Positions 584 through 18,487 of a stretch of 64,000 nt of DNA are shown here, one piece after another; position 1 is the stretch's first letter, and the number at the start of each line of letters is the position of its first letter. The notes beneath the pieces were generated by a model. That model was given only the letters and a program-made list of their open reading frames with translations. It did no database searches and was not told where the DNA came from. The DNA is taken from NCBI RefSeq assembly GCF_024436055.1, contig NZ_JANFNH010000001.1, positions 496,001-560,000 on the forward strand, in the 5' to 3' direction. Source of the DNA: Streptantibioticus rubrisoli (GTDB taxonomy: Bacteria; Actinomycetota; Actinomycetes; Streptomycetales; Streptomycetaceae). The translations under genes and the position numbers were made by a program.

Positions 584-2101
<1,518 letters not shown>

Positions 2102-2114
2102 GGCTGGTCGCCTC

Positions 2115-2978
2115 TCACGCGGTGGGTGGTCCGCTGCCGGGCGGCGTCGGGATCTCGCCGGGTTCCTGGGGCTGGGGGACCGGCAGATAGCGGCTGATGG
2201 ACAGCTTGTAGAAGGCCGCGCCGACCAGCCCGCCGATCAGCGGTGCGACGATGGGCACCCAGAAGTAGAGGTTCCCCCACTGGTCGCGGAAGGCGCCCCG
2301 GTAGCCGGTGATGAAGCTGGCCAGCCGGGGGCCGAAGTCACGGGCCGGGTTGATGGCGTAGCCCGCGTCGGCGCCGAACGCCATGCCGATCACCACCACG
2401 ATCAGGCCGATGACGAACGGCGCCAGGTTCGCGCGGGGGGGCGTGTTGAGCAGATCGGTGACCGCGAGGATCAGCATCATCAGCAGCGCGGTGCCGATCA
2501 CCTGGTCGCGGAAGGCGCCCCACTCGTGGATGCCCGCGGTGAGTGAGCCGTTGCCGGGCAGGGTGGAGAAGACGATCTGGGTCGCGGTGGTGTGTTTGGG
2601 GTCGGCGCGGGCCAGTACCTCGGTGAAGTTCCAGCGGACCAGTAGGGCCGCGACGAAGGCCCCGGCCGTCTGGGCCACCGCGTAGGGCAGCACCTTGGGC
2701 CAGGGGAAGCCCTTGAACGCGGCCAGCGCGAGGGTGACCGCGGGGTTGAGGTGGGCGCCGCTGATGCGTCCCGCCATGTAGACGCCGAACGTCACCCCCC
2801 AACCCCAGGCCCAGGCGATGCTGTCGTGGTTGCCGAGGCCGCCTTTGGGGCTGGTCAGGGCGCCTGCCGCCACCACCTGTGCCACCACGCCGCAGCCGAA
2901 GAGGATCAGCACCATCGTTCCGGCGAACTCCGCGGAGAGCTCGCCGATCAGCCGCGGTTTCGGTGTGGGTTCACTCAT
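2115..2978 (-). CDS. glpF: Aquaglyceroporin (glycerol uptake facilitator)
   Basis: A 287-residue MIP-family channel with about six membrane spans and the two half-helix motifs HLNPAVT and [10 protein letters not shown]. The Asp after the second NPA-R motif is typical of glycerol-conducting GlpF channels rather than water-only aquaporins. The reading frame is open far upstream, but the start at 2978 ([10 protein letters not shown]) is chosen because GAGGAGG lies just upstream and the family begins here. The Pro-rich tail after about residue 265 is probably cytosolic. It leads the glpF-glpK unit and supplies the kinase's substrate by facilitated diffusion. Confidence 0.93.
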
Positions 2979-3090
2979 GGGCGCCCGCCTCCTCAGGGCT
3001 GCGGCTCCGGCACGCAAAGAACCGTGCACCATCTTCCGGCACCGGAAGGGACCCGGCCAGTCGGACTTGACCAGGGCTCGCGCGTGCTGT

Positions 3091-3120
3091 TTAGTTGTAC
3101 ACAACTTAGTTGTGCACAAT
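3091..3120 (+). promoter_or_regulatory. Tandem OhrR-type operator boxes
   Basis: Two 15-base direct repeats lie head to tail: TTAGTTGTACACAAC (3091-3105) and TTAGTTGTGCACAAT (3106-3120). Each contains a palindromic core, TTGTACACAA or TTGTGCACAA. Cores of this kind are bound by OhrR, a MarR-family sensor of organic hydroperoxides, and the position directly before the ohr start fits. The regulator assignment is inference; no ohrR is next to the gene. Confidence 0.65.
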
Positions 3121-3149
3121 GCACATGCCAGGAGTTGAGAGGCTTTCCC

Positions 3150-3563
3150 ATGGACGCGCTCTACACCACAGCCGCCACCGCCAACGGCCGAGAGGGCCGC
3201 ACCGTCAGCTCGGACGGCAGGCTCGACCTCCAGTTGGCGTTCCCGCCCGCGCTGGGCGGGAACGGCAACGGCACCAACCCCGAGCAGTTGTTCGCCGCCG
3301 GATACGCGGCCTGCTTCGCCAGCGCTCTCGGCGCGGTCGGCCGTGAGGCCAAGGTTGACACCAGCGACGCCTCGGTCACCGCCGAGGTGGGCATCGGCAA
3401 GGACACCGACGGCGGCTTCGGGCTGGCGGTGACGCTCCGCGTCGAACTGCCCGAGTCGCTGCAGGGTCCGGCGGGCCGCGAGCTGGTCGAGAAGGCGCAC
3501 GCCTTCTGCCCGTACTCCAAGGCCACCCGGGGCAACATCCCGGTGGAACTGGTGGTGGAGTGA
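3150..3563 (+). CDS. ohr: Organic hydroperoxide resistance protein (Ohr peroxiredoxin)
   Basis: A 137-residue Ohr/OsmC-fold thiol peroxidase that reduces organic hydroperoxides, usually with lipoylated protein as reductant. The two catalytic cysteines are visible: Cys55 in AACFASAL and Cys120 in AFCPYS. The N-terminal GREGRTVSSDGRLDLQL segment is typical of Ohr rather than OsmC. ATG at 3150 follows AGGAGTTGAGAGG. It diverges from glpF, and two OhrR-like boxes lie just upstream, implying induction by peroxides. The repressor gene, often adjacent in other Streptomyces, is absent here and must be encoded elsewhere. Confidence 0.93.
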   Translation: MDALYTTAATANGREGRTVSSDGRLDLQLAFPPALGGNGNGTNPEQLFAAGYAACFASALGAVGREAKVDTSDASVTAEVGIGKDTDGGFGLAVTLRVELPESLQGPAGRELVEKAHAFCPYSKATRGNIPVELVVE

Positions 3564-3687
3564 CAAGTCGCCCGCCCCGGTGAGGAGTTGCGGCACCGCC
3601 TCGCACCGGCCGGAGTGCCACCGCCAGCCGGTCCCGCGGCCCGAACCGTGCCATGCGGCTGATCGCCGGAGGGGCGATAATTGACAG

Positions 3688-6126
3688 GTGCGGCCAAGGG
3701 CGATGAACACTCCCGAGGCGTCCGGCGGCGACACTCGGCGCTGCCCGTTCGACGTCACCGATGCCGCCGTCCTGGTGGTGGATCCCAAGGGCCTGATCCA
3801 GGGGTGGAGTCGCGGCGCACAGGAACTGCTCGGCTACCGGGAGCAGGAGGTCATCGGACGCCCCGCCACGGACCTGCTGGCCACCCCCGGCGAGGGACCG
3901 AAGCTGCGCCACCGCACCGGCAGCGGCTGGCAGGCGTCGCTGTCGGTACGCCACCGCGACGGGCACAGCCTTGAGGTCGGCGCGCAGGCGTGCCCGCTGG
4001 GCGCCGACCGCAAGGGCGCGAGCTGGCTGGTGGTCGCCGCCGACCTGGCCACCACGCAGGCATGGGAGCGCGAGCAGGCGGTGCTGCGCGGGCTGTTCAC
4101 CCAGTCCCCGTTCGGGCTGGCCGTGGTCGACCCGCAACTGCGGTTCCTGATGATCAACCCCGCGCTGGAGCGGATGGACGGCGTCCCGGCGCGGCTGCGG
4201 CTGGGCCGCCGCCTGCGCGACACGTTGCCCGGAGCCGGGGGACCGCTGGCGGAGGAGCGGGCCAGGGAGGTACTGGAGACCGGTGAACCGCTGGTCACCG
4301 TCGAGCAGGTGGACTCCGCGACCGACCCGCACCGGCAGCACGTACGGTCCGGCTCCTCCTTCCGGCTGCAGGACTCGGCCGGGCGCACCGTCGGCGTCGG
4401 ACACGCGGTGCTCGACGTCACCAGCCACCATCGCGCCCGGCAGCGCCTCGCCCTGGTCAACGAGGCCAGCGTGCTGATCGGCAGCACCCTGGACCTCGAC
4501 CGCACGGTCCAGGAACTGGCGGAGGTGCTGGTCCCGCGGGTCGCCGACTTCGTCGCCGTCGACCTGCTGGCCTCCGTGATCTGCGAGCAGGACCCGGAAG
4601 TGGTGCTGGTCTCCGACGCCACCGAGTTGCGCCGCACCGCCCATCGGTCCATCCGGCCGGGCCCGCCGAAGGTCCTGGTGGCGCTCGGTGAACCGGCCCA
4701 CTACCCGCAGGTGTCACCACAGGCCCGCTGCCTGGCCACCGGCCGGCCGGTGCTGGACGCCGTGGTGGACCTGTCCACGCCCTGGCTGCGCAAGGACCCG
4801 CCACGCGCCAAGCACCTGCACGACGTGGGCGTCCACTCCCACATGGTGGTCCCGCTGCGCGCCCGTGGCATCACCACGGGAGTGGCCACCTTGATGCGCT
4901 GGAAGAACGCCGAGCCCTTCGACGCCGACGACCTGCTGCTGGCCGAGGAACTCGCCGCCCGCGCCGCGGTGTGCATCGACAACGCCCGGCGCTTCACCCG
5001 CGAACACCGCGCCGCCCTCACCCTGCAGCGCAGTCTGCTCCCGCAGGACCTGCCCGCCCACACCGCGGTGGAGGCCGCCTACCGCTACCTGCCGGCCGAC
5101 ACCCAGGCAGGGGTCGGCGGCGACTGGTTCGACGTGCTGTCGCTGTCCGGCAGCCGGGTGGCCCTGGTCGTCGGCGACGTGGTGGGCCACGGCATGCACG
5201 CCGCCGCCACCATGGGACGGCTGCGCACCGCCGTGCACACCCTGGCCGACCTCGACCTGCCGCCCGACGAACTCCTCTCCCACCTCGATGACCTGGTGCT
5301 GCGGCTGGCCGCCGAGGAGGACGCCGCGGACCGGCCCGGCACCGGGGTGCTCGGCGCCACCTGCCTGTACGGGGTGTACGACCCCATCTGCCGGTCCGCC
5401 ACCTTCGCCCGCGCCGGGCATCCGCCACCGGCCATCGCCCACCTGGACAAGGCCGTCGAGTTCCCCGACATCCCGGCCGGACCTCCGCTCGGCCTCGGCG
5501 GTCTGCCGTTCGAGGCCGCGGAGGTACCCATTCCCGACGGCTGTGTGCTCGCCTTCTACACCGACGGTCTGATCACCGCCTCCCCGGACCGTGACGTGGA
5601 GACCGGCCTGGAGCGGCTGTGCTTCGCGCTGGCCCACCCCGACCGCCCGCTGGAGGAGATATGCGACGGCATGGTGCGCACCCTGCTGCCGGACCGTCCG
5701 CATGACGATGTCGCCTTCCTCGTCGCCCGCCCGCACGCGCTCAGCGCCGACAACTTCGCCACCTGGGACCTGAGCAGCGAGCCCACCGCGGTCGCGTACG
5801 CCCGGGCCATCACCGGGCGGCAACTGGAGCGCTGGGGCGTGGAGGAGCTGGCGTTCACCACCGAACTGATCGTCAGCGAGCTGGTCACCAACGCGATCCG
5901 CTACGCCTCCGAGCCGATCAGCCTGCGGCTGATCCGCGACGTACACCTGATCTGCGAGGTGTCCGACGGCAGCAACACCTCCCCGCACCTGCGTCGCGCA
6001 CGCTACAACGACGAGGGAGGCCGGGGGCTGTTCCTGGTGGCCCAGTTCGCCCAACGCTGGGGCACCCGCTACACCTCCGACGGCAAGACCATCTGGGCCG
6101 AACAGCCGTTGCCCGGCAGTGCCTAG
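3688..6126 (+). CDS. PAS/GAF/SpoIIE-type serine phosphatase with C-terminal HATPase domain
   Basis: An 812-residue cytosolic regulator in the order PAS (about 15-120), PAS (about 130-245), GAF (about 255-430), PP2C/SpoIIE phosphatase (about 450-665) and HATPase_c (about 690-812). The phosphatase core has GGDWFDV near residue 477 and GDVVGHG. The HATPase part has ELIVSELVTNAIRY near residue 726 and GGRGLFLV, as in RsbW-like anti-sigma kinases. Such proteins act in partner-switching control of sigma factors, dephosphorylating an anti-sigma antagonist in response to a PAS/GAF signal. The start is uncertain: GTG 3688, or ATG 3703 behind AAGGG. No partner genes are adjacent. The 145-bp repeat begins at its stop codon. 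Confidence 0.9.
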   Translation: MRPRAMNTPEASGGDTRRCPFDVTDAAVLVVDPKGLIQGWSRGAQELLGYREQEVIGRPATDLLATPGEGPKLRHRTGSGWQASLSVRHRDGHSLEVGAQACPLGADRKGASWLVVAADLATTQAWEREQAVLRGLFTQSPFGLAVVDPQLRFLMINPALERMDGVPARLRLGRRLRDTLPGAGGPLAEERAREVLETGEPLVTVEQVDSATDPHRQHVRSGSSFRLQDSAGRTVGVGHAVLDVTSHHRARQRLALVNEASVLIGSTLDLDRTVQELAEVLVPRVADFVAVDLLASVICEQDPEVVLVSDATELRRTAHRSIRPGPPKVLVALGEPAHYPQVSPQARCLATGRPVLDAVVDLSTPWLRKDPPRAKHLHDVGVHSHMVVPLRARGITTGVATLMRWKNAEPFDADDLLLAEELAARAAVCIDNARRFTREHRAALTLQRSLLPQDLPAHTAVEAAYRYLPADTQAGVGGDWFDVLSLSGSRVALVVGDVVGHGMHAAATMGRLRTAVHTLADLDLPPDELLSHLDDLVLRLAAEEDAADRPGTGVLGATCLYGVYDPICRSATFARAGHPPPAIAHLDKAVEFPDIPAGPPLGLGGLPFEAAEVPIPDGCVLAFYTDGLITASPDRDVETGLERLCFALAHPDRPLEEICDGMVRTLLPDRPHDDVAFLVARPHALSADNFATWDLSSEPTAVAYARAITGRQLERWGVEELAFTTELIVSELVTNAIRYASEPISLRLIRDVHLICEVSDGSNTSPHLRRARYNDEGGRGLFLVAQFAQRWGTRYTSDGKTIWAEQPLPGSA

Positions 6127-6268
6127 GCGCTCCGCTGGGAGTGCGGCGATGTGCCGTCGATCGTCTACAGCGCCGTTGCGGCTGGTCGCGCCCAGGCGGC
6201 GGAGCCGCACATGAACACAGCCCCGCGGCCCTTCGGGGCGCTACCGGACCGCAGTGGACTTCACCCGC
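6124..6268 (+). repeat. Dispersed intergenic repeat, copy A
   Basis: About 145 bases matching the reverse complement of 18568-18714 over the whole length, with scattered substitutions and a few indels. It begins at the TAG stop codon of the phosphatase gene with TAGGCGCTCCGCTGGGAGTG. It contains two internal hairpins: GCGGC-gga-GCCGC, and GCCCCG paired with CGGGGC around cggccctt. Orientation is the same as the upstream gene. Similar elements containing 'gcggctggtcgcgcc' and 'gcggcggagccgc' are common between Streptomyces genes (recalled, not searched). It may work as a transcription terminator or 3' UTR processing element. Confidence 0.8.
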
Positions 6269-6609
6269 GCTTGGACCAACGACCCTGGCAGGAGCGGGAA
6301 TTGCCGCCGAGGCACCCCAAATTCCGCCCTGTCGCGTTCAGTTCCCGGATGTGACCAATCTGTGAGCTTGGTCGCACACCGCCTCCATAATGCCTGGTCA
6401 GTAACGCTCCGTACGATCTTCAACTGACTTCGCACGCTAGTGTGTGATGTGTCGGCAGATCCTGCCAACACATCGCTTCTCCCTACGCTTCCGCCGTTTT
6501 CGGGACGTTGTGGGATGCCCCGACCGGGCAGCCCATGTCCGTCCGCGGAACGCCTTCCCGTGCACACCAGCGTCGATCCGCCGGTGTGCCATGTCCGTGT
6601 GGAGGTACC
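6269..6609. other. Intergenic leader upstream of the LuxC/LuxE-like operon
   Basis: No convincing gene. This should hold the promoter of the operon that starts at 6610. It has comparatively AT-rich patches around 6345-6450, but I could not settle on a -35/-10 pair with good spacing. The reading frame of the first operon gene is open through part of it, but without a ribosome binding site or protein-like composition. Confidence 0.4.
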
Positions 6610-7752
6610 TTGGCCCTCGATTTCCGCGTCGCGACTCTGGAAGACATCGACGGGTTGCTCCAGCTCTACCGACGGGTCTACGGGCGCGACTACGCGCTGC
6701 CGCTCGGCACCGACCCGGAGGTGATGGCCCGGGAGATCTGCGCACCGCTGACCACCTGGCTGGTCGCCGACGAGCCGGGAACCGGACGGTTGGTGGGGTC
6801 GATCGTGGGCAACCACGACCCGTCAAACGGCTTGGGCAAGCTCCAGGGCCTGGTGATCCACCCCGACGCCCGGGGCTCGGGCGCCGCGCGGCAGGCGGTC
6901 CAGCAACTCAGTGACACCCTGCTCAGCGGCGAGCAGCCCGCCGACTCCGTCTACGCCACCGCGCGCACCAACTCCACCGCACCCCAACGCATCTGCCTGC
7001 GCAGTGGTTTCCACGCCCTGGGCATCTTCCCCAACCTCCGCAAGGCCGCCCGGCACGAGACCATGGTGCTGCTGGCCCGCCACCGCGAAGGCGTGCTCGA
7101 ACGACGCCTTCCGGTGCCCCGGGTCCCGGCCCAACTCGGCGGCCTGGTCCAGGCACTGCGTTCGGCCGGGTTCGCGCTCGACACCGAGGTCACCGACGAG
7201 GTACCGCCGCGCGTCACCGGTGGCCGCCCGGCGGACCGCGCCGTCGAGCTCGTGGACGCGCCCGAGTTCGTCCTGCGCCGCTTCGCCGAGGTCATGCCCG
7301 ACCCCGCCCGGCGCTTCTACCCGTTCCACGCGCCCAACATCATGCTGGCCGCCACCGACGGGGCATACGAGCTGTACGCCCAACTCAGCCGGTCCGACGG
7401 GTACTGCGCGCTGATCGGCACCGCTCCCGGATTCTCCGCCCTCGGTGACGACCTGGAACCGCTCATCGAGCGGCTGGGCGGCTACGGCGCCTCCTACATC
7501 GAAACCCTGGTGCCGCTGGACCGCTACGAAGAACTGTGCCGGTTGCTCGCCCACGGCTTCCTGCCCGCCGCCGCCTACCCGGCGATGCGCCGGGAGGGCA
7601 CACGGTTCCGCGACCACGTCGTGATGGCCCGCACCCTCCAGCCGCTGGACTTCCACGACCTGGCCATCGACATGGCGTTCCAGCCCTTCACCGAGCAGTA
7701 CATCGAGCTGTGGAAGCAGCAATACCTCAACACCTGCGGGGTTTTCCAGTGA
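6610..7752 (+). CDS. GNAT-family N-acyltransferase, first gene of LuxC/LuxE-like operon
   Basis: A 380-residue protein with an N-terminal GNAT acyl-CoA N-acyltransferase fold (about residues 4-150). The acyl-CoA pyrophosphate loop is visible as VIHPDARGSGAARQAV (about 82-97). The C-terminal 200 residues are less clear and may be a second, degenerate GNAT-like half. The likely start is TTG 6610 behind GGAGGT at 6601-6606; spacing is short, so an upstream start is possible. Its TGA stop overlaps the next gene's GTG by four bases, so the two are translationally coupled. In this context it may transfer an acyl group to an amine before or after activation and reduction by the neighbouring enzymes; that is inference. 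Confidence 0.7.
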   Translation: MALDFRVATLEDIDGLLQLYRRVYGRDYALPLGTDPEVMAREICAPLTTWLVADEPGTGRLVGSIVGNHDPSNGLGKLQGLVIHPDARGSGAARQAVQQLSDTLLSGEQPADSVYATARTNSTAPQRICLRSGFHALGIFPNLRKAARHETMVLLARHREGVLERRLPVPRVPAQLGGLVQALRSAGFALDTEVTDEVPPRVTGGRPADRAVELVDAPEFVLRRFAEVMPDPARRFYPFHAPNIMLAATDGAYELYAQLSRSDGYCALIGTAPGFSALGDDLEPLIERLGGYGASYIETLVPLDRYEELCRLLAHGFLPAAAYPAMRREGTRFRDHVVMARTLQPLDFHDLAIDMAFQPFTEQYIELWKQQYLNTCGVFQ

Positions 7753-8921
7753 ACCAGTACCTGGGACCGGTCTCGGTACCCGATCCCGACGCCCTCGCCG
7801 CCGTGCAACGGCTGTGCGACATCGCCGAGCCGTACCTCGCGGGCCCGGACAGCGACCGGCTGTTCGCGCGGGCGATGAACGAGTCCAACGCCTGGCACGC
7901 CGCCCGCTCCCCGTTCTTCGACCGGCTGCTGGCCGCCAGCGCGGCCGCCGACCGTCCGCTGGAGGACGTGGCCGACCTGCACCGGCTGCCGTTCGTGCAC
8001 GCCAACTTCTACAAGGCGCACGAAGTGGTGTCCATCCCCGCCGACGACGTGAAGCTGCACGTCACCTCCTCCGGCACCACCGGCCAGAAGTCGCAGATGT
8101 TCTTCGACGACTTCACGCTGCGCAACGGCCAGCGCATGGTCGCCCGGATCTTCGACCACTACGGCTGGATCGGCGAGAGCGAGCCGGTCAACTACCTGCT
8201 CTCCAACTACCAGCCGCGTCCCGGGCTGAACCTGGGCAGCTCGTTCACCGACGAGTACCTGTGTCACTTCGCACCGGTGCGGTCGGTCGAGTACGCGCTC
8301 AAGCACACCGGCGGCGGCCACGAGTTCGACCCGTTCGGCTGCGTTCGCGCGCTCATCCGCTACGCCGAGGAGGGCGCGCCGGTACGCATCCTGGGGTTCC
8401 CGGCCTTCCTCTCCTTCACCCTCGACCGGATGCGGGAGCTGGGCATCCCGCCGCTGGAGCTCGACCCGCGGTCGCTGGTCGTCTTCGGCGGCGGCTGGAA
8501 GGGCCACGCCGACAAGCAGGTGGCCAAACCCGAGCTGTACCAGCGCATCCACGACCAGTTGGGCATCCCCGACGAACGCATCCGCGACGGCTTCGGCGCC
8601 GCCGAGCACTCCGTGCTCTACATGGAGTGCCCACGGCACCGCCTGCACGTACCCACCTGGTCCAGGATGCTGGTCCGCTCGGTGCGCACGCTGGAGCCGC
8701 TGCCCCACGGGGAGCCCGGCTACGCCCAGTTCATCTCCCCGTACATCACGTCGGTCCCGGCCCAGTCCGTGCTCATGGGCGACCTGGTCACGCAGTACGG
8801 CCCCGAGGAGTGCGGCTGCGGGCTGCCCACGCCCTGGTTCACCGTGCACGGCCGGGCCGGGCTGAGCCGCAACCGCAGCTGTGCCATCGCCGCCGCCGAA
8901 CTGATCAAGGGGAAGTCATGA
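7749..8921 (+). CDS. LuxE/PaaK-like acyl-protein synthetase (adenylate-forming)
   Basis: A 390-residue adenylate-forming enzyme of the LuxE/PaaK group, which activates a carboxylic acid with ATP and passes the acyl group to a thiol. The phosphate loop TSSGTTGQKS is at about 106-115. A Gly-rich VFGGGWKGH, a GFGAAEHSV motif and a Cys pair near the C-terminus (CGCGLPTPWF) follow. Length fits LuxE (about 370). GTG 7749 overlaps the upstream stop as GTGA, and its own stop overlaps the next gene as ATGA. In luminous bacteria LuxE feeds acyl groups to the LuxC reductase; the adjacent LuxC-type gene suggests the same partnership. No luxAB luciferase genes are nearby, so the product is not expected to be light. 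Confidence 0.82.
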   Translation: MNQYLGPVSVPDPDALAAVQRLCDIAEPYLAGPDSDRLFARAMNESNAWHAARSPFFDRLLAASAAADRPLEDVADLHRLPFVHANFYKAHEVVSIPADDVKLHVTSSGTTGQKSQMFFDDFTLRNGQRMVARIFDHYGWIGESEPVNYLLSNYQPRPGLNLGSSFTDEYLCHFAPVRSVEYALKHTGGGHEFDPFGCVRALIRYAEEGAPVRILGFPAFLSFTLDRMRELGIPPLELDPRSLVVFGGGWKGHADKQVAKPELYQRIHDQLGIPDERIRDGFGAAEHSVLYMECPRHRLHVPTWSRMLVRSVRTLEPLPHGEPGYAQFISPYITSVPAQSVLMGDLVTQYGPEECGCGLPTPWFTVHGRAGLSRNRSCAIAAAELIKGKS

Positions 8922-11449
8922 CCAGCGAGTTGCTGCCCGACGGACACTACTGGCAGGGCGAGTGGGTCGACGACGCCGAGGCGGAACGCCGACTCGACGC
9001 GCTGGACGACTACGTCCCCGAGGCGCTGGCCCGCCCCCTCAGCCCACTCCTCGTGATCGCCGCGTGCGACCGCCTGGCCACCGCGCTCAGCGACCCGGAC
9101 GACCCGCACACCCAGCGGCTCACCGCACTGCTGCGCCAGGCCGCGGTGCCCGAGGAGGAGTCGGCACGCACCCTGCGCGACATCGCCGCGGCCCTCGGCC
9201 GGGAGGCCCTGGAGACCAAGCTGACCCGCGAGCTGGGCGGCATCGACCCCGGTCGGCTGGCCCGCTTCGACCTGCGCCGGGAGGTCTTCGAGGCCTGGCT
9301 GCCGGTCGGCCTGCTGGTGCACATCACCCCTGGCAACGCGCCCGCCGCCGGAGCGCTCAGCGTGGTCGAGGGGCTGCTCGCCGGAAACGTCAACGTGGCC
9401 AAGACCAGCGGCGGTTCACGCTTCACCCACGGACTGCTGGCCAGTCTCGGTGAACTCGATCCCACCGGGCAGATCGCCAGTCGGGTGGTCGTGCTCGGCT
9501 TCCCCTCCAGCCGCACCAGCTGGCTGGAGCGGCTGTGCGCCGCAGCCGACGCGGTCGCCGCCTGGGGCGGGGAGGAGGCCATCGCGGGCGTGGCGGCCCT
9601 GGTGCGGCCCGGCTGCCGGCTGGTCGACTGGGGGCCGAAGCTCTCCTTCGCCTACCTCACCGCGGACACCTGGTCCGCCCCCAAGACACTGCGCGCGGTG
9701 GCCGCCGACATCTGCCGCCTCGGCCAGCAGGCGTGCTCCAGCCCGCAGGTCGTCTATCTGGACACCGAAGACACCGACGAGGTCTTCGCGTTCGCCGAGC
9801 GGTTCGCCACCGTACTGGCCGACGCCGTCAGCGAGTCGCGTCCGGCCGAGCCGGAGCTGATGGAGAGCGCGGAGATCACCAACACCGTCCTGGTGGCCCA
9901 GCTGGAGCAGCACCTGGACCTCACCCGGGTGCACGCCGCGCCGGACGGCAGCTGGCACGTACTGGCCGACACCCGTGGCGCGCTGCGGGCCTCACCGCTG
10001 CACCGCACGGTGTGGGTCAAGCCCCTGCCGCGCAAACGGATCGGCGAGGTGCTGCGCCCGATGCGCCGCTACCTGCAGACCGTCGGCCTGGGCGCCGATC
10101 GCCGCGACACCGCCGAACTGGCCACCGCCGTGCTGGCCGCCGGAGCCCAACGGGTCACCGTACCCGGCGAGATGCTGGGCAGCTACAACGGCGAACCGCA
10201 CGACGGCGTCTACGCGCTGCAGCGCTACAGCCGCCGGGTGGACGTGCAACTCGACGCCCGGTTCTCCACCGACGCCTGCCTGGACGACCTGGTCGGCGCG
10301 CGCGAACTGCCGCCGCCCGCCGTGCCGGTCACCGCCAAGGCGGATTTCGAGCAACTGCAAAGCGACCTGAGCCGGGCCGAGGTGTTCTTCCGCAGCGGCG
10401 GCAGCTCCGGCGCGCCCAAGCTGTCCGCGTTCACCTGGGACGACTACCACGAGCACATGCGCCACGGCGCGGAGGGCCTGCTGGCCGCCGGGTTCGAGCC
10501 GCGCACCGACCGGGCCATGAACCTGTTCTTCGGCGGTCTGCTCTACGGAGGTTTCCCCAGCTTCTTCTCGGTGCTGGAGACCCTGAACGCGGTGCAGTTC
10601 CCCATGGCCGCACAGCAGGACCACGCCGCGGTGGCCCGCTCCATCGTGGAACACCGGGTGGACACCCTCCTCGGCATGCCCAACTACCTACTACGGGTGT
10701 TCACCGAGGGCGCCGAGGAACTGCGCGGGTACCGCGGGGTGCGCAAGATCTTCTACGGCGGTGAGCACTTCCCCGAGCGCCAACAGGCCTGGCTGCGCGA
10801 GGAGTTCGGGGTCGAGTTGATCCGCTCGGCCGCCTACGGCAGCGTTGACGCCGGGCCGTTGGGTTACCAGTGCGGTGCGTCACCGGCTCGGGTGCACCAC
10901 CTGTTCAGCGGTCTGCAGACGCTGGAGATCCTGGAACCGGTCGCGGACCGCCCGGCACCGGTCGGCGAGACGGGACGACTGGTGTTCACCGCGCACACCC
11001 GGCGCGGCCAGCGACTGGACCGGTATGAGATCGGTGACCTGGGCCGTTGGGTGCCGGGCGAGTGCTCGTGCGGTCGCCGCACGCCGCGCTTCGAACTGCT
11101 GGGCCGGTTCGGTGACATCTTCCGCAGCGGCAGCCACTTCCTCAACTACCGCAGGTTCGCCGCCGTCGCGGAGGACGCGCTGGGCCACACCGGCGCCGTA
11201 CAGATCCTGCTGGACGAGAACGAGCACGCCGACGAGCGGCTGACCGTACGGCTGGAGGGCGACGCCACCCGGCCCGAGGCCGACGCGGCACGGGTCTTCC
11301 TCGATGAGTACCCCGCGCTGGACATCGCGGTGAACCGGGACCGCATGGTGGAGCTGCGGGTGGAGTGGGCCCCCGTGGAGCGCTTCGAGCAGACCGCCGC
11401 CAGCGGCAAGCTGCTCGCGGTCGTGGACCGCCGGGAACGCAACCGCTGA
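8918..11449 (+). CDS. Fusion of LuxC-like acyl reductase and LuxE/PaaK-like ligase
   Basis: An 843-residue two-domain protein. Residues 1 to about 440 resemble LuxC acyl-CoA/acyl-enzyme reductase, an aldehyde-dehydrogenase-fold NADPH enzyme; the likely acyl-accepting cysteine is Cys273 in GQQACSSPQ. Residues from about 450 to the end form a second adenylation domain with RSGGSSGAPK (492-501), IFYGGEHF, AAYGSVDAGPL and DRYEIGDLGRW. Joining both in one chain would couple acid activation with reduction to the aldehyde, as GriC and GriD do as separate proteins in grixazone biosynthesis of S. griseus (recalled from the literature). The start overlaps the previous stop by four bases. A strong hairpin terminator follows the stop. 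Confidence 0.82.
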   Translation: MTSELLPDGHYWQGEWVDDAEAERRLDALDDYVPEALARPLSPLLVIAACDRLATALSDPDDPHTQRLTALLRQAAVPEEESARTLRDIAAALGREALETKLTRELGGIDPGRLARFDLRREVFEAWLPVGLLVHITPGNAPAAGALSVVEGLLAGNVNVAKTSGGSRFTHGLLASLGELDPTGQIASRVVVLGFPSSRTSWLERLCAAADAVAAWGGEEAIAGVAALVRPGCRLVDWGPKLSFAYLTADTWSAPKTLRAVAADICRLGQQACSSPQVVYLDTEDTDEVFAFAERFATVLADAVSESRPAEPELMESAEITNTVLVAQLEQHLDLTRVHAAPDGSWHVLADTRGALRASPLHRTVWVKPLPRKRIGEVLRPMRRYLQTVGLGADRRDTAELATAVLAAGAQRVTVPGEMLGSYNGEPHDGVYALQRYSRRVDVQLDARFSTDACLDDLVGARELPPPAVPVTAKADFEQLQSDLSRAEVFFRSGGSSGAPKLSAFTWDDYHEHMRHGAEGLLAAGFEPRTDRAMNLFFGGLLYGGFPSFFSVLETLNAVQFPMAAQQDHAAVARSIVEHRVDTLLGMPNYLLRVFTEGAEELRGYRGVRKIFYGGEHFPERQQAWLREEFGVELIRSAAYGSVDAGPLGYQCGASPARVHHLFSGLQTLEILEPVADRPAPVGETGRLVFTAHTRRGQRLDRYEIGDLGRWVPGECSCGRRTPRFELLGRFGDIFRSGSHFLNYRRFAAVAEDALGHTGAVQILLDENEHADERLTVRLEGDATRPEADAARVFLDEYPALDIAVNRDRMVELRVEWAPVERFEQTAASGKLLAVVDRRERNR

Positions 11450-11466
11450 CCGGCTTGCGCGGCACA

Positions 11467-11504
11467 GTCCCTCCGCCGGACCGCCTGGGGTCCGGCGGAG
11501 GGAC
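11467..11504. terminator. Strong bidirectional hairpin terminator
   Basis: A perfect 16-bp stem, GTCCCTCCGCCGGACC (11467-11482) against GGTCCGGCGGAGGGAC (11489-11504), with a six-base loop. It sits between two convergent genes and can serve both. Confidence 0.9.
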
Positions 11505-11510
11505 TCGTCG

Positions 11511-12779
11511 TTATGAGCCCGACATCCGCTCGTCGATGAGCCTGACCAGCTTGCCGGTACGGGGGTTGAGGGTCAGGCCGTCCACATCCACCCACTCGAA
11601 CGCGAGCGGGTGGATCTTGCCCTGGCGTACGTGTTCGTCGAACATCGGCCGCACGCAAGCCAGTCGCTGCGTCAGCGCGTCCTCCAGGGCCTGGCGGTCC
11701 GCGCCATCGCCGCGCCGCGCCGCCAGACGCAGCACCAGCTCGTCCCGGGTCTCCCGGTGCCGGAGCACCACCTGGGTCCCGGCCACCAGACCCCGCTTGT
11801 CCTCGGTCTCGACCAGTTGCCGCAGGTCCTCCAGGTACACGGTGACCACCCCGACCCTGGCCCCCTCCTCGGAGCGGCCGAGCAGCCGCAGGCGCCGCCG
11901 GGGGAAGTCCACCCACTCGGCCATGTCACCGACCGGGTAGCGGATCACCGGCATCAACCGCCGCACCAGGTCCGTTGCCACCACCCGGCCGGGGCGGCCC
12001 GGTTCCTCGATGGGCTCACCGGTCTCCGGGTCGAGCAGCTCCACCACCTTGTCCGGGGTGAACACCTCGTGCACCCGGGGATCCGCCTCCCCGGCGACCG
12101 GCCCGGCCAGCACGCCCGCGTCAACACTGGCGTAGCCGATGGAGCGCACCTCGATACCGGGGAACGCCTGGTCCAGCAACGAGAGTTGATCGCCGTACAG
12201 CGCCTCACCGCTGAACAGCGCCAGCCGGACGCCGGGCAGCGTGCCGACCGTGTTGACCACCTCAAGCGCCAGGCGGCACAGCGAGGTCGGCGGCGCGGCG
12301 ATGACGGTCGCGTCGAAGTCACGCAGCGCGTGCACGGTGAAGTCCAGCGGACTGCCGCCGCCGATCGGCAGCTGTACGGTGGGAACCGGCGCGTCCTGCA
12401 GGCAGTTGAGGGTGAAGACGAAGCTGGAGTACAGCTCCCCGGCGTAGAAGAGGTTGGCCACCCGGTCCCCGGTCCGCAGCCCGGCCGCGGGCAGGCCGTC
12501 CCCGAACCGGCGGCTCATCGCCCGCCACTCGTCCCGGGTGTAGCGGGACACCCGGGGAGCGCCCGTGGTCCCGCCGGTCTTGAAGACGATGCCCTCGGTG
12601 TGCGGTCCGGTCAGCACCTGGCTGACCGGCGCGCCGTGCGCCTTCCAGTACGCGGTGTGATCGACCAGTGGCAGTGCGGTCAGATCGGCCGACTCGGCGG
12701 GTAGCTCGGCATAGAGGTCGCGGTAGTACGGCGAGTTCTGCCGCGCGAAGGATATGAGCTCGGCTAGTTGAGCGTTCAT
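11511..12779 (-). CDS. PaaK-like adenylate-forming ligase
   Basis: A 422-residue member of the phenylacetate-CoA ligase/coenzyme F390 synthetase group. The phosphate loop is KTGGTTGAPR (about 67-76), followed by LFSGEALYGDQ, SIGYASVDAGVL and a VIRYPVGDMAEW adenylate-binding segment. The C-terminus has a small domain ending in NPRTGKLVRLIDE, with a Lys in the position expected for the catalytic A10 lysine. It is the third adenylation unit in 6 kb and converges on the operon across a shared terminator. It could activate a related acid or provide the CoA ester. The start at 12779 follows AGGGAAG. Confidence 0.85.
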   Translation of the reverse strand: MNAQLAELISFARQNSPYYRDLYAELPAESADLTALPLVDHTAYWKAHGAPVSQVLTGPHTEGIVFKTGGTTGAPRVSRYTRDEWRAMSRRFGDGLPAAGLRTGDRVANLFYAGELYSSFVFTLNCLQDAPVPTVQLPIGGGSPLDFTVHALRDFDATVIAAPPTSLCRLALEVVNTVGTLPGVRLALFSGEALYGDQLSLLDQAFPGIEVRSIGYASVDAGVLAGPVAGEADPRVHEVFTPDKVVELLDPETGEPIEEPGRPGRVVATDLVRRLMPVIRYPVGDMAEWVDFPRRRLRLLGRSEEGARVGVVTVYLEDLRQLVETEDKRGLVAGTQVVLRHRETRDELVLRLAARRGDGADRQALEDALTQRLACVRPMFDEHVRQGKIHPLAFEWVDVDGLTLNPRTGKLVRLIDERMSGS

Positions 12780-12940
12780 GTGGTCCAACTTCCCTGTGGG
12801 GCAAGGATTCCAGGGTACTGAACCCGGGTTTGCCGTGGATCCGTAGGTCTGTTGGGGGATGGTGAAATTCGTTCGAATCTGTGGCCCCCGGCCGGTACTG
12901 TCGACCGGTTCGGATACGGGGCTGAAGGATGAGGTGCCAA
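12780..12940. promoter_or_regulatory. Divergent promoter region with small inverted repeat
   Basis: The region lies between the divergent PaaK-like and serine hydrolase genes. It contains ATTCG-TT-CGAAT at 12867-12878, a possible operator, in a locally AT-rich patch. No confident -10/-35 elements were found. Confidence 0.35.
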
Positions 12941-14317
12941 ATGGACGGCGCACCAGAAGAGTTGCTGCCCGCCACACGTCGCGCCCTGCTGCACCGGCTG
13001 GCCGTCGGCCAGGCCGAGGGCCGTACGCCGTCGCTGGTGGGAGCGGTGGTACGGAACGGGCGCACGGCGTGGACCGGGGCGCGCGGCATGCTGGACGACC
13101 ACCAGCCGACCGATGACGTGCAGTACCGGATCGGTTCGCTCACCAAGTCGTTCGTCGCGGTACTGGTGCTGCGGCTGCGCGACGAGGGGCTGCTGGACCT
13201 CGCCGACCCGCTGGAACGGCATCTGCCCGGCACCTCCGTCGGTGAGCTGACGGTACATCAGCTTCTCGCGCATACCTCGGGGCTGGCCGCTGAGACGCCC
13301 GGACCGTGGTGGGAGCGCACACCCGGTGAGTTGCGGCCCGACCTGGCGGATGTGCTGGGGGAGCAGCCGGTGCGCCATCCCGCCGGTCGCCGGTTCCACT
13401 ACTCCAACCCCGGCTACGCCCTGCTGGGCGCGCTGGTGGCCCGGCTGCGCGGTGCGCCGTGGGGCGAGGTGCTCCACCGTGAGGTGCTGGAACCGCTCGG
13501 TATGACGCGGACCACGCTGCTGCCGCAGGCCCCGCACGCCGCAGGGTTCGCGGTGCACCCGTGGGCGGACGTCATGCTGCCCGAACCGCTGGAGGACACC
13601 GGCGTGATGGGGCCCGCGGGCCAACTGTGGTCCACCACGGCCGACTTGTGCCGGTGGGCGGCGTTCCTGGCCGACGGTGACGAGAAGGTGCTCAGCCCGG
13701 CGACGGTCGCGCAGATGCGCCGCCCCACCGCGGAGCCGTACGACCCGCAGTGGACCACCGGCTACGGGCTCGGCCTGCAGATCCTGCGGCGGGACGGGCG
13801 GGAGTTGTACGGCCACGGCGGTTCGATGCCCGGGTTCCTGGCGAGCGTCTGGGTGAGCGAGGCGGACGACGTCGCGGCCGTCACGCTGGCCAATGTGACC
13901 TCGGGGATGAACACCACGGTGATCGCCGCAGATCTCATCCGGATCGTCGCCGAGCACGAGCCGCGCATCCCGCAGCCGTGGCGCCCGCTGCGCGACGTCG
14001 ATCAGGAGCTGCTGGCGCTCACCGGCCCCTGGTACTGGGGCGCCGCCCCGTTCACCCTACGGCTGCGGGCGGACCGCGCGCTGGAACTGACCGCCCTGGG
14101 CGCGGTGGGCCGCAGCTCGCGCTTCCGGGCGGAGCCGGACGGCACGTGGACCGGCCTGGACGGCTACTACACCGGTGAGCGGCTGCGGGTGGTCAGGATC
14201 GCCGACGGCACCGCCAGCCATCTGGACATCGGCAGCTTCGTCCTCACCCGCCAGCCCTACGAGCCCGCCGCCTCGATTCCGGGCGGCGTGGACCCCCGGG
14301 GCTGGCGCGCCAACTAG
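12941..14317 (+). CDS. Serine hydrolase, beta-lactamase class C / EstB-like family
   Basis: A 458-residue penicillin-binding-protein-like hydrolase. The active-site SxxK is SLTK (Ser66, Lys69), the second motif is Tyr154-Ser-Asn, and the third is HGGSMPG near residue 292. The last 110 residues form a C-terminal lipocalin-like domain often found in this family. No signal peptide is obvious, so it is probably cytosolic, with esterase, D-aminopeptidase or beta-lactamase-like activity. ATG 12941 is preferred over ATG 12929 because GGATGAGG sits at the right distance. Its stop codon runs into a hairpin terminator. Whether it serves the divergent ligase cluster is unknown. Confidence 0.85.
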   Translation: MDGAPEELLPATRRALLHRLAVGQAEGRTPSLVGAVVRNGRTAWTGARGMLDDHQPTDDVQYRIGSLTKSFVAVLVLRLRDEGLLDLADPLERHLPGTSVGELTVHQLLAHTSGLAAETPGPWWERTPGELRPDLADVLGEQPVRHPAGRRFHYSNPGYALLGALVARLRGAPWGEVLHREVLEPLGMTRTTLLPQAPHAAGFAVHPWADVMLPEPLEDTGVMGPAGQLWSTTADLCRWAAFLADGDEKVLSPATVAQMRRPTAEPYDPQWTTGYGLGLQILRRDGRELYGHGGSMPGFLASVWVSEADDVAAVTLANVTSGMNTTVIAADLIRIVAEHEPRIPQPWRPLRDVDQELLALTGPWYWGAAPFTLRLRADRALELTALGAVGRSSRFRAEPDGTWTGLDGYYTGERLRVVRIADGTASHLDIGSFVLTRQPYEPAASIPGGVDPRGWRAN

Positions 14318-14339
14318 GGGCCGCCTCGCCTGCGGCCCC
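14317..14339 (+). terminator. Hairpin terminator after the serine hydrolase
   Basis: GGGGCCGC (14317-14324) pairs with GCGGCCCC (14332-14339) across a seven-base loop, starting at the last base of the stop codon. Confidence 0.75.
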
Positions 14340-14417
14340 CGAAGTTGACCTTCACCTTGGGGCAGGCCGCAGCATCGATCGGGCCGGGCGAGGCGCCCGG
14401 TATGAGGAGGAGCGGGC

Positions 14418-14516
14418 ATGGGCTTGCTGACCATCGGGGCCTTCGCCAAGGCGTCCCGGCTCTCACCGAAGGCCCTGCGCCTTTACGACGAGTTGGGACT
14501 GCTGACCCAGCGCTCT
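14418..14516 (+). pseudogene. MerR-family regulator, N-terminal remnant
   Basis: About 33 residues of a MerR winged-helix domain starting at an ATG with a good AGGAGGAG site: [20 protein letters not shown] and then ELGLL. This is exactly the first helix-turn-helix segment of MerR proteins. The homology stops after LLTQ at about 14510, and the frame then runs into sequence belonging to a different gene in another frame. A MerR-style spaced promoter (TTGACC at 14345) precedes it. The effector domain is lost, so this is a broken gene; a very short protein could still be made. Confidence 0.7.
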
Positions 14517-14517
14517 A

Positions 14518-14772
14518 CTAGCAAGGGCGTTGACCGGCGTGGACGAGGCCATCCCCGATGTCCGTCTGCACGAGGCCCGGCCCGGCGACCGCTATCTGCT
14601 CTGCTCCGACGGCCTGTCCGCAGTGGTACCGGCCGAACTCCTGTGCCAGGTCATCGCAGCAGACTTCGGCCCCCAACAGGCGGCACGTGAACTGATCGAC
14701 GAGGCAAACCGCCGCGGCGGCCCCGACAACGTGAGCTGCGTGGTGGCCCACGTCGCGGAGGCGCGGCGGTAG
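14518..14772 (+). pseudogene. PP2C-type serine/threonine phosphatase, C-terminal remnant
   Basis: The last 80 or so residues of a PP2C phosphatase: [13 protein letters not shown], then [15 protein letters not shown] and the metal-binding GGPDNVSCVV near the end. These are the final motifs of bacterial PstP-like phosphatases; the first two-thirds, including the N-terminal metal-binding Asp, is missing. It begins within ten bases of the point where the MerR remnant ends and is in a different frame, so a deletion appears to have joined two genes. Confidence 0.75.
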
Positions 14773-14891
14773 CGGCACCCGTTCCGCAGGCCGAACTCGC
14801 CTAATCAACGGCTGGTTGCAGCCCTTGCCGGACTTCCACGGCAGGGTCACCGGCTCTCAGTGGTTGGTGTCCGTCGTGTACTTCATAGTCG

Positions 14892-14927
14892 GGCCGCATC
14901 GCCCGGGACCTCACCGGCGATGCGGCC
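14892..14927. terminator. Hairpin terminator
   Basis: A perfect 12-bp stem, GGCCGCATCGCC (14892-14903) against GGCGATGCGGCC (14916-14927). It sits just beyond the stop of the leftward DinB gene and after the rightward PP2C remnant. Confidence 0.75.
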
Positions 14928-14935
14928 AGACCCCT

Positions 14936-15442
14936 CTACGCCCCGACCGTGCCGTCGATGGCCTCGCGCAGGAAGTCGGCGTGGCCGTTGTGCCGGGCGT
15001 AGTCGTAGAAGACATGCAGCATCACCAGCCGTAGCGACACGTCCTCGCCCCAACGAGCCTGGTGCCCAACCACATCAAGGGATTCCGCCTCACGCTCGAT
15101 CCGCCGCGCGTGCTCGACCTCCGCCTGCCAGGCGGCGAACGCCTCCGACCGGGTGGACGCGCTCGCGTCGTACGCCACCTGGTAGTCGTCCTCCCGCGAC
15201 CAGACCAGCGGAATGTCCTCGCCGTTGATCACCCGCCGGAACCAGGTGCGTTCCACCTCGGCCATGTGCCGCACCAGGCCGAGCAGCGACAGCGTCGAGG
15301 GCGGTGACGACTGACGGCGCAACTCCTCGTCGCTCAGACCCTCGCACTTCATGGCGAGCGTCGCACGCTGGTAGTCGAGGAAGGCACGCAGCATCTCGCG
15401 CTCCGGCCCGATCAACGGCGGCCCGACGCGTTCTACCGTCAT
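14936..15442 (-). CDS. DinB-family protein (DUF664-like)
   Basis: A 168-residue four-helix DinB/YfiT-type protein. The family pattern is clear: GLVRHMAEVERTWFRR early in the chain and LVMLHVFYDYARHNGHADF near the end, giving the three metal-binding histidines. Actinobacterial members are often mycothiol-dependent transferases, but the substrate cannot be told. Its ATG overlaps the stop of the RNA-ligase-like gene by four bases (ATGA), so the two are translated together. Confidence 0.85.
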   Translation of the reverse strand: MTVERVGPPLIGPEREMLRAFLDYQRATLAMKCEGLSDEELRRQSSPPSTLSLLGLVRHMAEVERTWFRRVINGEDIPLVWSREDDYQVAYDASASTRSEAFAAWQAEVEHARRIEREAESLDVVGHQARWGEDVSLRLVMLHVFYDYARHNGHADFLREAIDGTVGA

Positions 15443-16002
15443 GCCCTGAAGTCCCTCCGCTTGATCTTCGCCATCCGCACTCCGTCTGGATGGTGCCATA
15501 CGATCCCCTCGTACCGCGGGCGGGCCAGCAGCCACTCCCGTAGCCCCTCGAAGTCCCGCGGCGCGGCCGCCACTTCGGCCAGGACCGCTGCGGGCGCCCA
15601 GCCGTGACGTACCAGGGTGTGGGCCTCGAACCCCTCCGGGTTGCCGTTGATCCTCGGACCGACGAGTTCATACGTGCCGGGCGTCCACCCATCACCCAGC
15701 CGCACGGCCTGCGCGTGGAACCCGGCGAACGAGGACTGGGCCATCGGCTCCCAACCCACCGTCTTGCCGGTGGTCTGGTCCGTCTCGACGGGCACGTAGT
15801 TCGCGGGCGCCGCCTTCCCGGCCCGCACCTCGCGCCGTGCCCACCACGCGCCGTGCTCGTCCAGCATCACGCACGTCCCGTCCCACTTACGCGTCGGCAG
15901 GCCCTCACCGGCCACCACCCACGCACAGTCGGGCGCCACCTCAGGCAGCACGAAGCGACGCTCCCGCGGATCGCGCACGAACAGTGTCGGGACCTTACGC
16001 AT
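15439..16002 (-). CDS. RNA ligase-like nucleotidyltransferase
   Basis: A 187-residue protein with the covalent nucleotidyltransferase motifs of the ligase/capping superfamily. Motif I is KWDGT (Lys is the AMP-accepting residue), motif IV is YEGIVW and motif V is AKIKRRDF. No OB-fold or separate DNA-ligase domains follow, so it is a minimal adenylyltransferase like small RNA ligases. The predicted reaction is lysine adenylation followed by transfer to a 5' phosphate, as in RNA nick repair, but activity is unproven. It is coupled to the downstream DinB gene. RNA ligases are unusual in Streptomyces accessory DNA and are sometimes phage- or repair-related. Confidence 0.8.
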   Translation of the reverse strand: MRKVPTLFVRDPRERRFVLPEVAPDCAWVVAGEGLPTRKWDGTCVMLDEHGAWWARREVRAGKAAPANYVPVETDQTTGKTVGWEPMAQSSFAGFHAQAVRLGDGWTPGTYELVGPRINGNPEGFEAHTLVRHGWAPAAVLAEVAAAPRDFEGLREWLLARPRYEGIVWHHPDGVRMAKIKRRDFRA

Positions 16003-16068
16003 GATTCCCCCGGTGTGGCCGTTCCCATCTGGTCGGGGTGTAGTGAACCACCGTCGGGCGTTTGCCTG

Positions 16069-16956
16069 TTACCCATTTACGCCTGGCCGCCCGGGACGGC
16101 GGCAGGCGGGCGCCCCGAAACGCGCCAGGCAGTGCCAGACCTTCTTGAGGTCTTGCGGGTCGTACCGGCCTGTTCGAGCGGCGTCCCCGATGATCCTGGG
16201 ATCGAGTCGGCCGCCGACCGCGATCTCCGCTCCCAGGTCCACATAGCGCTGTCCCCGGTACTCCGGGTGGCGCCGCAGGTGCGGCACGCTGAGCCGAAAG
16301 CCAGGATGCCACTCGATCGGGCACGGTAGCGCGCGGGCCGCGTCCTCCACGGCCGTACCGCGATAGCTGGGATCGAGGACGAGTGCCTCGACATCACGGT
16401 CGAGCCTGACCGGGCCGTGTATCTGCGCTTCGATGTGGCCGTCCAGGTCATCCAGGTCGTCGGCCTCGGCCAGCGCGATGAGCGAGAAGTGATCCGCGAC
16501 GCCGAAGTCGCGGGGCCCGGTGGAACTGTCGGGGTAGCAGAACGTGGCCCGGGCGAGGGTTTCACCGGTGAGCCGGAAGTACGAGGAGCCGAACCGTGGT
16601 GCTCCGCCGACGGGACTGCGGCGGAAGTCCAGCGCTCCGTAGACAGGGCGCTCGGCGTCGGCGGCGTGGTCGTAGGCGCCTGCGAAGATGCGGCTTTCCC
16701 ATCGCCACCGGTCCCCGCCGGGGTGGGCGGTGAGACCGCCGTTGCTGGTGCCCGTCACGAACTGCGAGCGGTAGATTCGGTCCGCGGCCATCTTGCACAG
16801 GATCGGCTGGCCGTCCGCTGACCGGTCGGGGTGGAAGTTCATCGTCAGCCGCAACCGGGGGTCGAGCGGGCCTCCCGAGGACAGGTTGGCGACATGGCGC
16901 AGGGCCTTGTGCTGCGGTGACCAGGCGGGGTCAATTTCCATCGCCGCAGTGTGCAC
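16069..16956 (-). CDS. DUF3626 family protein
   Basis: A 295-residue protein recognised as DUF3626 from LRLTMNFHPDR in the N-terminal part, the ALDFRRSPVGGAPRFGSSYF stretch and the DHFSLIA segment. The function of the family is not established. It has no signal peptide or membrane helix. It reads toward the RNA-ligase/DinB pair with a 66-base gap and may share its transcript. The start is uncertain: GTG 16956 or ATG 16941, neither with a strong ribosome binding site. Confidence 0.75.
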   Translation of the reverse strand: MHTAAMEIDPAWSPQHKALRHVANLSSGGPLDPRLRLTMNFHPDRSADGQPILCKMAADRIYRSQFVTGTSNGGLTAHPGGDRWRWESRIFAGAYDHAADAERPVYGALDFRRSPVGGAPRFGSSYFRLTGETLARATFCYPDSSTGPRDFGVADHFSLIALAEADDLDDLDGHIEAQIHGPVRLDRDVEALVLDPSYRGTAVEDAARALPCPIEWHPGFRLSVPHLRRHPEYRGQRYVDLGAEIAVGGRLDPRIIGDAARTGRYDPQDLKKVWHCLARFGAPACRRPGRPGVNG

Positions 16957-17053
16957 GAACGCCCACCGCTACCACATCCCGATTACGCTCAAGCGACCTT
17001 GCACCGGCCGGCGCCACCGCTACGACCCCCGTCTCCCCGGTCGCCCGCCACCC

Positions 17054-17317
17054 TCAGAGCGCGCCCTCGGTCCGGCGCGCAGCGCCGTTCTGCGGGTGGG
17101 CCTCCGCGATGCCCGCACGTGACACGACCCAGGTCCGGGTGGCGCGGGTGGCCGTACGCTCCGGCTCGGTCGCCAGGGCCTCGGCGTCCTCCCGCTGGTC
17201 AGGGGCGTCGACCGGGTAATCCGCGTAATCCGATTCGTCCACGACCACATCAACGGACGAGACGCCGCCAGGTGACGGTGGGACACCCGCGCGTACCCGA
17301 AGTCGATAACCAGCCAT
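17054..17317 (-). CDS. Small hypothetical protein
   Basis: An 87-residue candidate starting MAGYRLRVRAG, with an acidic middle (DESDYADYPVDAPDQREDAE) and a basic start. It diverges from the gene at 17378. I recognise no family. Composition and placement between two leftward/rightward neighbours make it plausible, but the last 25 residues look like read-through and there is no clear ribosome binding site. Confidence 0.4.
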   Translation of the reverse strand: MAGYRLRVRAGVPPSPGGVSSVDVVVDESDYADYPVDAPDQREDAEALATEPERTATRATRTWVVSRAGIAEAHPQNGAARRTEGAL

Positions 17318-17377
17318 GCTGGCCGCGATAATCGCACGTTCTTGGACTTGCGGCCCAAGTGCCGACACCCTTGGGAC

Positions 17378-18025: not shown

Positions 18026-18031
18026 AGCGAA

Positions 18032-18487
18032 CTACGGCATCCGCCACGGTTCTTGGGGCAGCGGGTTGCCGGTCTCGACGTACGTCTTGAGGTTGGACAG
18101 CACCGCTGCCCACCCGTGGGCCGCCTTTTCCCGTTCGGCATCGCTGGGCAGGTTCTCATGGGTCATGGTCAACCGGACGATCCCGTCGTACGGCTGGATG
18201 TCGAAGGTGACCCGGGAGGCGGCCTCCCCGGTGGGGTCCGCGCCGGGCAGTACCCAGGTGCTCACCAGCCGGGTCGGCGGTGCGCTCTCCAGCACCGTGC
18301 CGACGACATCGGCGGTGCGTGTACCGTCCGTCCGCTGGTGCTCCCAGGTCGAACCCGCCTTCCAGTCGGAGACATTGCTGTGGCCCCAGTAGGCGCCCGT
18401 CGCGTCGGCGTCGGTCAGCGCGTGCCAGACCCGTTCCGCGCTGCTGCCGATGTAGGTCACGTATCTGACTGCGGACGTGTCCGCCAT
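18032..18487 (-). CDS. SRPBCC/AHSA1-type START-like protein
   Basis: A 151-residue helix-grip protein of the activator-of-Hsp90-ATPase-1-like family. It shows the VTYIGSSAERVWHALTD opening, a G-S-T-W turn in the middle and the closing HGWAAVLSNLKTYVETG helix. Such proteins bind hydrophobic ligands and are often stress- or polyketide-associated. ATG 18487 follows GGAGG by five bases, so the GTG at 18499 is not needed. Copy B of the dispersed repeat separates it from the upstream MFS gene. Confidence 0.88.
   Translation of the reverse strand: MADTSAVRYVTYIGSSAERVWHALTDADATGAYWGHSNVSDWKAGSTWEHQRTDGTRTADVVGTVLESAPPTRLVSTWVLPGADPTGEAASRVTFDIQPYDGIVRLTMTHENLPSDAEREKAAHGWAAVLSNLKTYVETGNPLPQEPWRMP

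Follow-up and report, generated by a model that had tools for sequence, protein, structure and literature searches.

The closest described relatives of the locus reported here are the leupABCD genes found in Klebsiella oxytoca/michiganensis and Xenorhabdus bovienii. Those of K. oxytoca yield leupeptin together with a lysine analogue and derived pyrazinones, and lysine and homoarginine variants come from leup loci in other bacteria (excerpts of PMC11480411). Leupeptin of X. bovienii is made without nonribosomal peptide synthetases (NRPSs), with separate AMP-dependent ligases forming the amides and a reductase forming the aldehyde (PMC11212599 in part, citing Li et al. 2020). A leupeptin acid reductase that reduces leupeptin acid with NADH and ATP hydrolysis is also discussed for Streptomyces (part of PMC7714073), and a pair of LuxE (adenylation) and LuxC (reduction) proteins would fit such an enzyme. 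Leupeptins themselves were described from actinomycetes, judging from reference titles in PMC11212599. Here, we analyzed a 64,000-nucleotide stretch of the Streptantibioticus rubrisoli genome (contig NZ_JANFNH010000001.1, positions 496,001 to 560,000; termed the window herein, with coordinates counted from its first nucleotide), which contains genes for a GNAT acyltransferase, a LuxE-like enzyme, a LuxC-PaaK fusion protein, and a stand-alone PaaK-like ligase. We are confident that these genes are the actinobacterial version of a leup locus and encode a pathway that leads to a leupeptin-type peptide aldehyde without NRPSs, and their sequences make it very probable that the product of this strain is leupeptin or a close relative or analogue.

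The GNAT acyltransferase (6610-7752, plus strand; 380 amino acids), the LeupD counterpart, is read from a TTG codon, but its start codon is uncertain, with other in-frame starts at 6586, 6535, and 6508. It is coupled by two 4-base overlaps (GTGA and ATGA) to the LuxE-like acyl-adenylate/acyl-Cys enzyme (7749-8921, plus strand; 390 amino acids, GTG start; LeupA counterpart) and then to the LuxC-PaaK fusion (8918-11449, plus strand; 843 amino acids, ATG start; LeupB counterpart), which consists of a LuxC reductase (approximately residues 1 to 455) and a PaaK-like adenylation domain (approximately residues 460 to 843). The stand-alone PaaK-like AMP ligase (11511-12779, minus strand; 422 amino acids, ATG start; LeupC counterpart) faces these three genes. 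This layout, including coordinates and domains, agrees with a first-pass annotation that had been made from the nucleotide sequence alone. That annotation had also placed a shared terminator between the convergent genes; a strong hairpin is indeed present (11466-11505, no strand assigned), with a perfect 17-bp inverted repeat as its stem (z = −6.6 for the 81-nucleotide stretch folded), but it lacks a T run and a consensus scan returned no terminator; the hairpin is a possible bidirectional terminator.

LeupA and LeupB were anchored with the published primers leupA_f and leupB_r, for which a 1,235-bp product is reported in the K. oxytoca CAV1374 leup cluster at 315,353-321,183 (PMC8283571, in part). 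In Klebsiella michiganensis DSM 25444, both primers matched with 0 mismatches and spanned 6924-8158 of the extracted stretch (1235 bp, as published), leupA_f falling inside the LuxE gene and leupB_r where the LuxC-PaaK gene begins; LeupA is therefore the LuxE-like protein and LeupB the LuxC-PaaK fusion, and the gene order suggests that LeupC is the PaaK ligase and LeupD the GNAT protein. The same primers had 0 matches in a Salmonella plasmid locus with up to 3 mismatches allowed. Against these K. michiganensis proteins, the window LuxE protein showed 50% identity to LeupA over 377 columns and the fusion showed 38% identity to LeupB over 842 columns. The stand-alone PaaK ligase was closer to LeupC (38%, 236 bits) than to LeupB (28%, 92 bits), and the fused PaaK domain was closer to LeupB than to LeupC. 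Because each PaaK part prefers its own counterpart, the match is one to one and goes beyond a general resemblance. The sequence features that mark a leup locus are all found in the window, namely, a LeupA-type LuxE protein with its C-terminal Cys, a LeupB-type fusion with its catalytic Cys, a LeupC-type separate PaaK ligase, and a LeupD-related GNAT protein.

The domain assignments were made with Pfam, which identified Acetyltransf_1 in the GNAT protein (2.5e-6), LuxE in the LuxE-like protein (5.5e-22), LuxC in the fusion (4.2e-84, residues 46-439), and AMP-binding domains in both the fusion (1.5e-5, residues 559-690) and the separate ligase (6.9e-6), the two AMP-binding matches being below the Pfam cut-off. 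PaaK-type NCBIfam models also matched both PaaK parts (1e-22 to 1e-10, below the curated cut-offs), and in alignments both retain glycine-rich P-loops and the C-terminal SGK/TGK lysine. The reductase cysteine predicted by the first-pass annotation, Cys273 (codon at 9734-9736, plus strand), is present in the motif QQACSSPQ, was invariant in two alignments of 15 and 24 fusion sequences, and aligns with the Cys of DQQAC in the LuxC protein of 7xc6, a fatty acid reductase whose LuxE protein was the sole PDB match of the window LuxE profile. Cys378 of LuxE was conserved without exception in an alignment of 12 sequences; from LuxE biochemistry, we take it to be the proposed acyl carrier. The structure model of the fusion was moderate (predicted local distance difference test score [pLDDT] of 77.7 and predicted template modeling score of 0.56, with most of residues 448-500 below 50) and was used for domain folds only. 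For the GNAT protein (pLDDT of 88.8), the top Foldseek match was 2wpw, a tandem GNAT protein of clavulanic acid biosynthesis, with a whole-length template modeling score of only 0.39, followed by phosphinothricin and histidine acetyltransferases. The model suggests a tandem (double) GNAT protein, the second half of which matches LeupD poorly in sequence, and we counted the presence of amino acid acetyltransferases among the fold neighbors in favor of the leup assignment.

The fusion was found in 73 of 394 Streptomycetaceae genomes (6 of 17 genera; E ≤ 1e-100), where it falls into two clades, and in 2 of 396 genomes of a phylum-wide draw (E ≤ 1e-60), these being the host and one other genome of the same family. 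Neighborhoods were compared for 32 loci from 29 of these 73 genomes plus two plasmid records, and all 34 of these actinobacterial loci contain the four genes A, B, C, and D. Beyond the actinobacteria, a genome scan retained the 80 of 427 relatives that most resembled a Salmonella protein, a set hence gamma- and betaproteobacterial by design; every retained locus had the order A-B-C-D, and in 52 the stretch also contained an MFS match. Leup-like loci are widespread in Pseudomonadota among these records (L052-L131), e.g., in Pseudomonas, Erwinia, Morganella, Pantoea, Burkholderia, Chromobacterium, and Rugamonas, as well as in Xenorhabdus, Photorhabdus, and Klebsiella, the genera named in the excerpts of the cited literature. 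A complete leup-like gene set also lies on a Salmonella enterica plasmid typed as conjugative IncF (CP054717.1; L034 13869-19627), its four genes being annotated as acyl-protein synthase, AMP-binding protein, phenylacetate-CoA ligase, and GNAT; on a second Salmonella plasmid (CP053580.1; L049), no GNAT gene is annotated after the PaaK gene. With L049 left out, profiles that were built partly from the same sequences detected the four genes in 115 of 115 fusion-bearing loci (20 of clade A, 14 of clade B, and 81 gamma- or betaproteobacterial), and the grouping is therefore not due to chance. The presence of the four genes in all of the 14 related loci compared below, and on the Salmonella plasmid, points to a self-contained four-enzyme pathway.

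Since the architecture matches that of leupABCD, an acyl-peptide acid is the most likely substrate, and both PaaK parts most likely form amide bonds. Both the order of the steps and the residue that each ligase adds are what we infer for the following scheme. The GNAT protein would acylate an amino acid (leucine in leupeptin), and the separate PaaK ligase (LeupC type) would adenylate the acyl-amino acid and couple a second amino acid, to which the fused PaaK domain (LeupB) would attach the third (arginine in leupeptin). LuxE (LeupA) would then adenylate the peptide acid, carry the acyl group on Cys378, and hand it over to Cys273 of LuxC, where reduction with NAD(P)H would yield the aldehyde, a trap for serine and cysteine proteases. 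The first-pass annotation had proposed acid reduction by a fused reductase together with three adenylating ligases and a likely N-acylation, all of which is retained; its suggestion that the pathway possibly serves an undescribed metabolite is not, since the architecture is already assigned to leupABCD of Klebsiella and Xenorhabdus with one-to-one protein matches. Its aryl-acid comparison with GriC and GriD is likewise not supported. It had itself suggested searching for homologues of the fusion and their neighbors, and had regarded homologues with the same architecture in a known pathway as speaking against its proposal; the same domain order was found, in the 115 loci that hold the four genes, and the homologues of Klebsiella and Xenorhabdus are assigned to leup. 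The window locus is thus an actinobacterial member of the leup family rather than a pathway of a new type.

Several observations weigh against this assignment. The genes are ordered D-A-B with a convergent C in the window and A-B-C-D in leupABCD, no MFS (exporter) match adjoins the window locus, and identities to the leupABCD proteins range from 22 to 50%. The similarity between the GNAT protein and LeupD is weak and, in BLAST, confined to the N-terminal part (22% to K. michiganensis LeupD [E = 1e-4] and 28% to the X. bovienii D protein [E = 1e-8]), and the window protein is longer (380 amino acids versus 294 to 307 amino acids in the leupABCD systems). Residues specific to clade A in the LuxE motif and elsewhere may mean that the substrate is not Ac-Leu-Leu-Arg. 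In addition, leupeptin detected by mass spectrometry in Streptomyces LN699 was assigned to an antipain-type NRPS cluster (PMC11212599, in part), and Streptomyces peptide aldehydes including leupeptin are treated as NRPS products, with livipeptin being NRPS-like, in excerpts of PMC10548850; both assignments weigh against a leup origin in those strains. The NRPS-type and NRPS-like aldehydes such as antipain and livipeptin belong to the same proposed product class as that of the window (PMC10548850, in part), but, unlike those systems, the four window proteins showed no match to a carrier protein, a condensation domain, or an NRPS reductase domain in Pfam and NCBIfam. No leup genes were named for Streptomyces in the literature that we found, and the primary leup paper (Li et al. 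2020) may already mention actinobacterial homologues of this kind.

The 20 clade A loci, including the window, have the order D-A-B with C convergent or co-directional and no match to the MFS gene of clade B; all 14 clade B loci examined have C-MFS-D-A-B on one strand. The clade B fusions are 56 to 60% identical to the window fusion, and three genomes of the genus carry both clades. One of these is the host (assembly of 7.26 Mb in 103 contigs), which has a second, clade B leup-like operon (G000:C27:113387-121722; L037:7388-15723) composed of genes for PaaK, MFS, GNAT, LuxE, and LuxC-PaaK. This copy and the operon on pSCATT of Streptantibioticus cattleyicolor encode the same four proteins as the window, those of the host copy with 44 to 66% identity to the window proteins. 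The LuxE core motif reads GA.EHSVLYMEC in clade A and mostly VEH.VPY.EC in clade B and proteobacteria, and the fused PaaK motif reads YGSVDAGPLG in clade A and proteobacteria and YGSTDLGPLG in clade B. Because of such differences, the clades may differ in substrate, with the conserved-motif comparison of the ligases showing clade differences without pointing to particular amino acids. In a LuxC-domain tree of 58 rows, with 19 gamma- and betaproteobacterial rows chosen from 81 and with very long outgroup branches, the gamma- and betaproteobacterial rows formed one group (100/100) that, under midpoint rooting, joined the clade B side (91/99), and the actinobacterial rows did not form one clade.

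Within the leup assignment, it is possible, though somewhat short of an even chance, that the window directs a peptide aldehyde clearly unlike leupeptin, with other residues or another N-acyl group, and that this genome makes two different inhibitors, one from its clade A locus and one from its clade B locus. The separation of the clades, their co-occurrence in three genomes, the clade-specific residues in the LuxE and PaaK parts, and the lysine and homoarginine variants cited above from part of PMC11480411 favor such a sub-case; the clade A fused PaaK domain, by retaining the proteobacterial motif that clade B lacks, and the description of leupeptins from actinomycetes in the reference titles argue against it. 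A further idea, which we put forward more tentatively, is that streptomycetes harbor two NRPS-independent peptide aldehyde lineages, sometimes in one genome, and that the window's product differs from both leupeptin and the clade B product; the separately placed PaaK ligase, the missing exporter match, and the distinct LuxE signature are the features that would set the window lineage apart.

Two readings outside a functional leup pathway are much less probable. A locus that reduces aryl or fatty acids in the manner of GriC/GriD or LuxC/LuxE, with the GNAT protein acylating an amine, would agree with the resemblance of the LuxC and LuxE parts to 7xc6, the fatty acid reductase, and with the aryl acid substrates of several PaaK relatives whose structures were solved with ligands. 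GriC and GriD of grixazone biosynthesis are a LuxC/LuxE-like pair of separate proteins that acts on an aryl acid and is not known to have a PaaK fusion. The window shares the LuxC and LuxE domains and the LuxC catalytic Cys with the luminous bacterial system, but has an additional PaaK domain and PaaK protein and a likely peptide acid substrate. In line with the first-pass annotation, which had noted no luciferase, Pfam detected no luciferase family among 15 predicted genes (core four included) at 584-20091, where a few small genes were left unscanned. All four genes have one-to-one counterparts in leupABCD and stay together from locus to locus, and no further gene family is conserved beside them in the clade; we therefore rejected fatty or aryl acid reduction as the primary explanation and consider it very unlikely. 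Equally slim is the chance that the window holds a decayed or silent leup relic. Signs of decay do occur among its relatives, since the fusions of the clade A loci L169 and L170 were matched as two pieces and the fusion match in the host's own clade B copy ends at residue 798 of 843, with the open frame continuing into unrelated sequence and the usual C-terminal tail not found by a word search of three frames; the latter may be a real change or an assembly error, the tail being lost, out of frame, or misassembled. The four window genes, in contrast, have open frames, intact catalytic residues, a GC content at third codon positions of 0.91 to 0.95, and zero TTA codons, and their products are 91 to 95% identical to those of a congener.

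As a member of the leup family, the window locus is, judging from sequence, a candidate for the genetic source of leupeptin in streptomycetes. Together with its relatives in the 73 Streptomycetaceae genomes, it supplies testable candidates for the production of leupeptin-type compounds in the very group of bacteria that leupeptins were described from. The clade differences offer a route to new protease inhibitors, and the occurrence of clade A and clade B loci within one genome is of particular interest.

Gene families around the locus were compared for 14 related loci and the window, two of the entries (L033 and L047) being overlapping stretches of one replicon. The fusion, LuxE, GNAT, and PaaK genes occurred in every entry and an MFS gene in 10 of 15; among families that occurred in three or more loci and extended outside the genus, the only others were the MFS gene, limited to one clade, and five families with three members each that lay scattered (C10 and C12-C15). 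A larger hidden cluster was rejected: apart from the core four, the clade-limited MFS gene, and the scattered families, neighbors are conserved at the genus level only. The gene just upstream of the locus (3703-6126) encodes a PAS-PAS-GAF-SpoIIE-HATPase protein of the stress-regulator type, which is closely conserved next to the locus only within the genus; this protein and a beta-lactamase-like protein that also flanks the locus had close matches (86 to 92%) only there, with weak SpoIIE matches (31 to 36%) elsewhere.

LuxE-LuxC pairs were also seen in other settings. A Chloroflexota plasmid (CP069395.1; L050 6868-9269) carries such a pair that lacks the PaaK fusion, and a heliorhodopsin gene lies roughly 3 kb from it. 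On a Streptomyces europaeiscabiei plasmid (NZ_CP109155.1; L051 886-9344), a pair without PaaK adjoins genes for a DUF692 multinuclear iron protein, a metallo-beta-lactamase-fold protein, and a YcaO-like protein, and this locus possibly specifies a ribosomally synthesized and posttranslationally modified peptide with a reduced C terminus.

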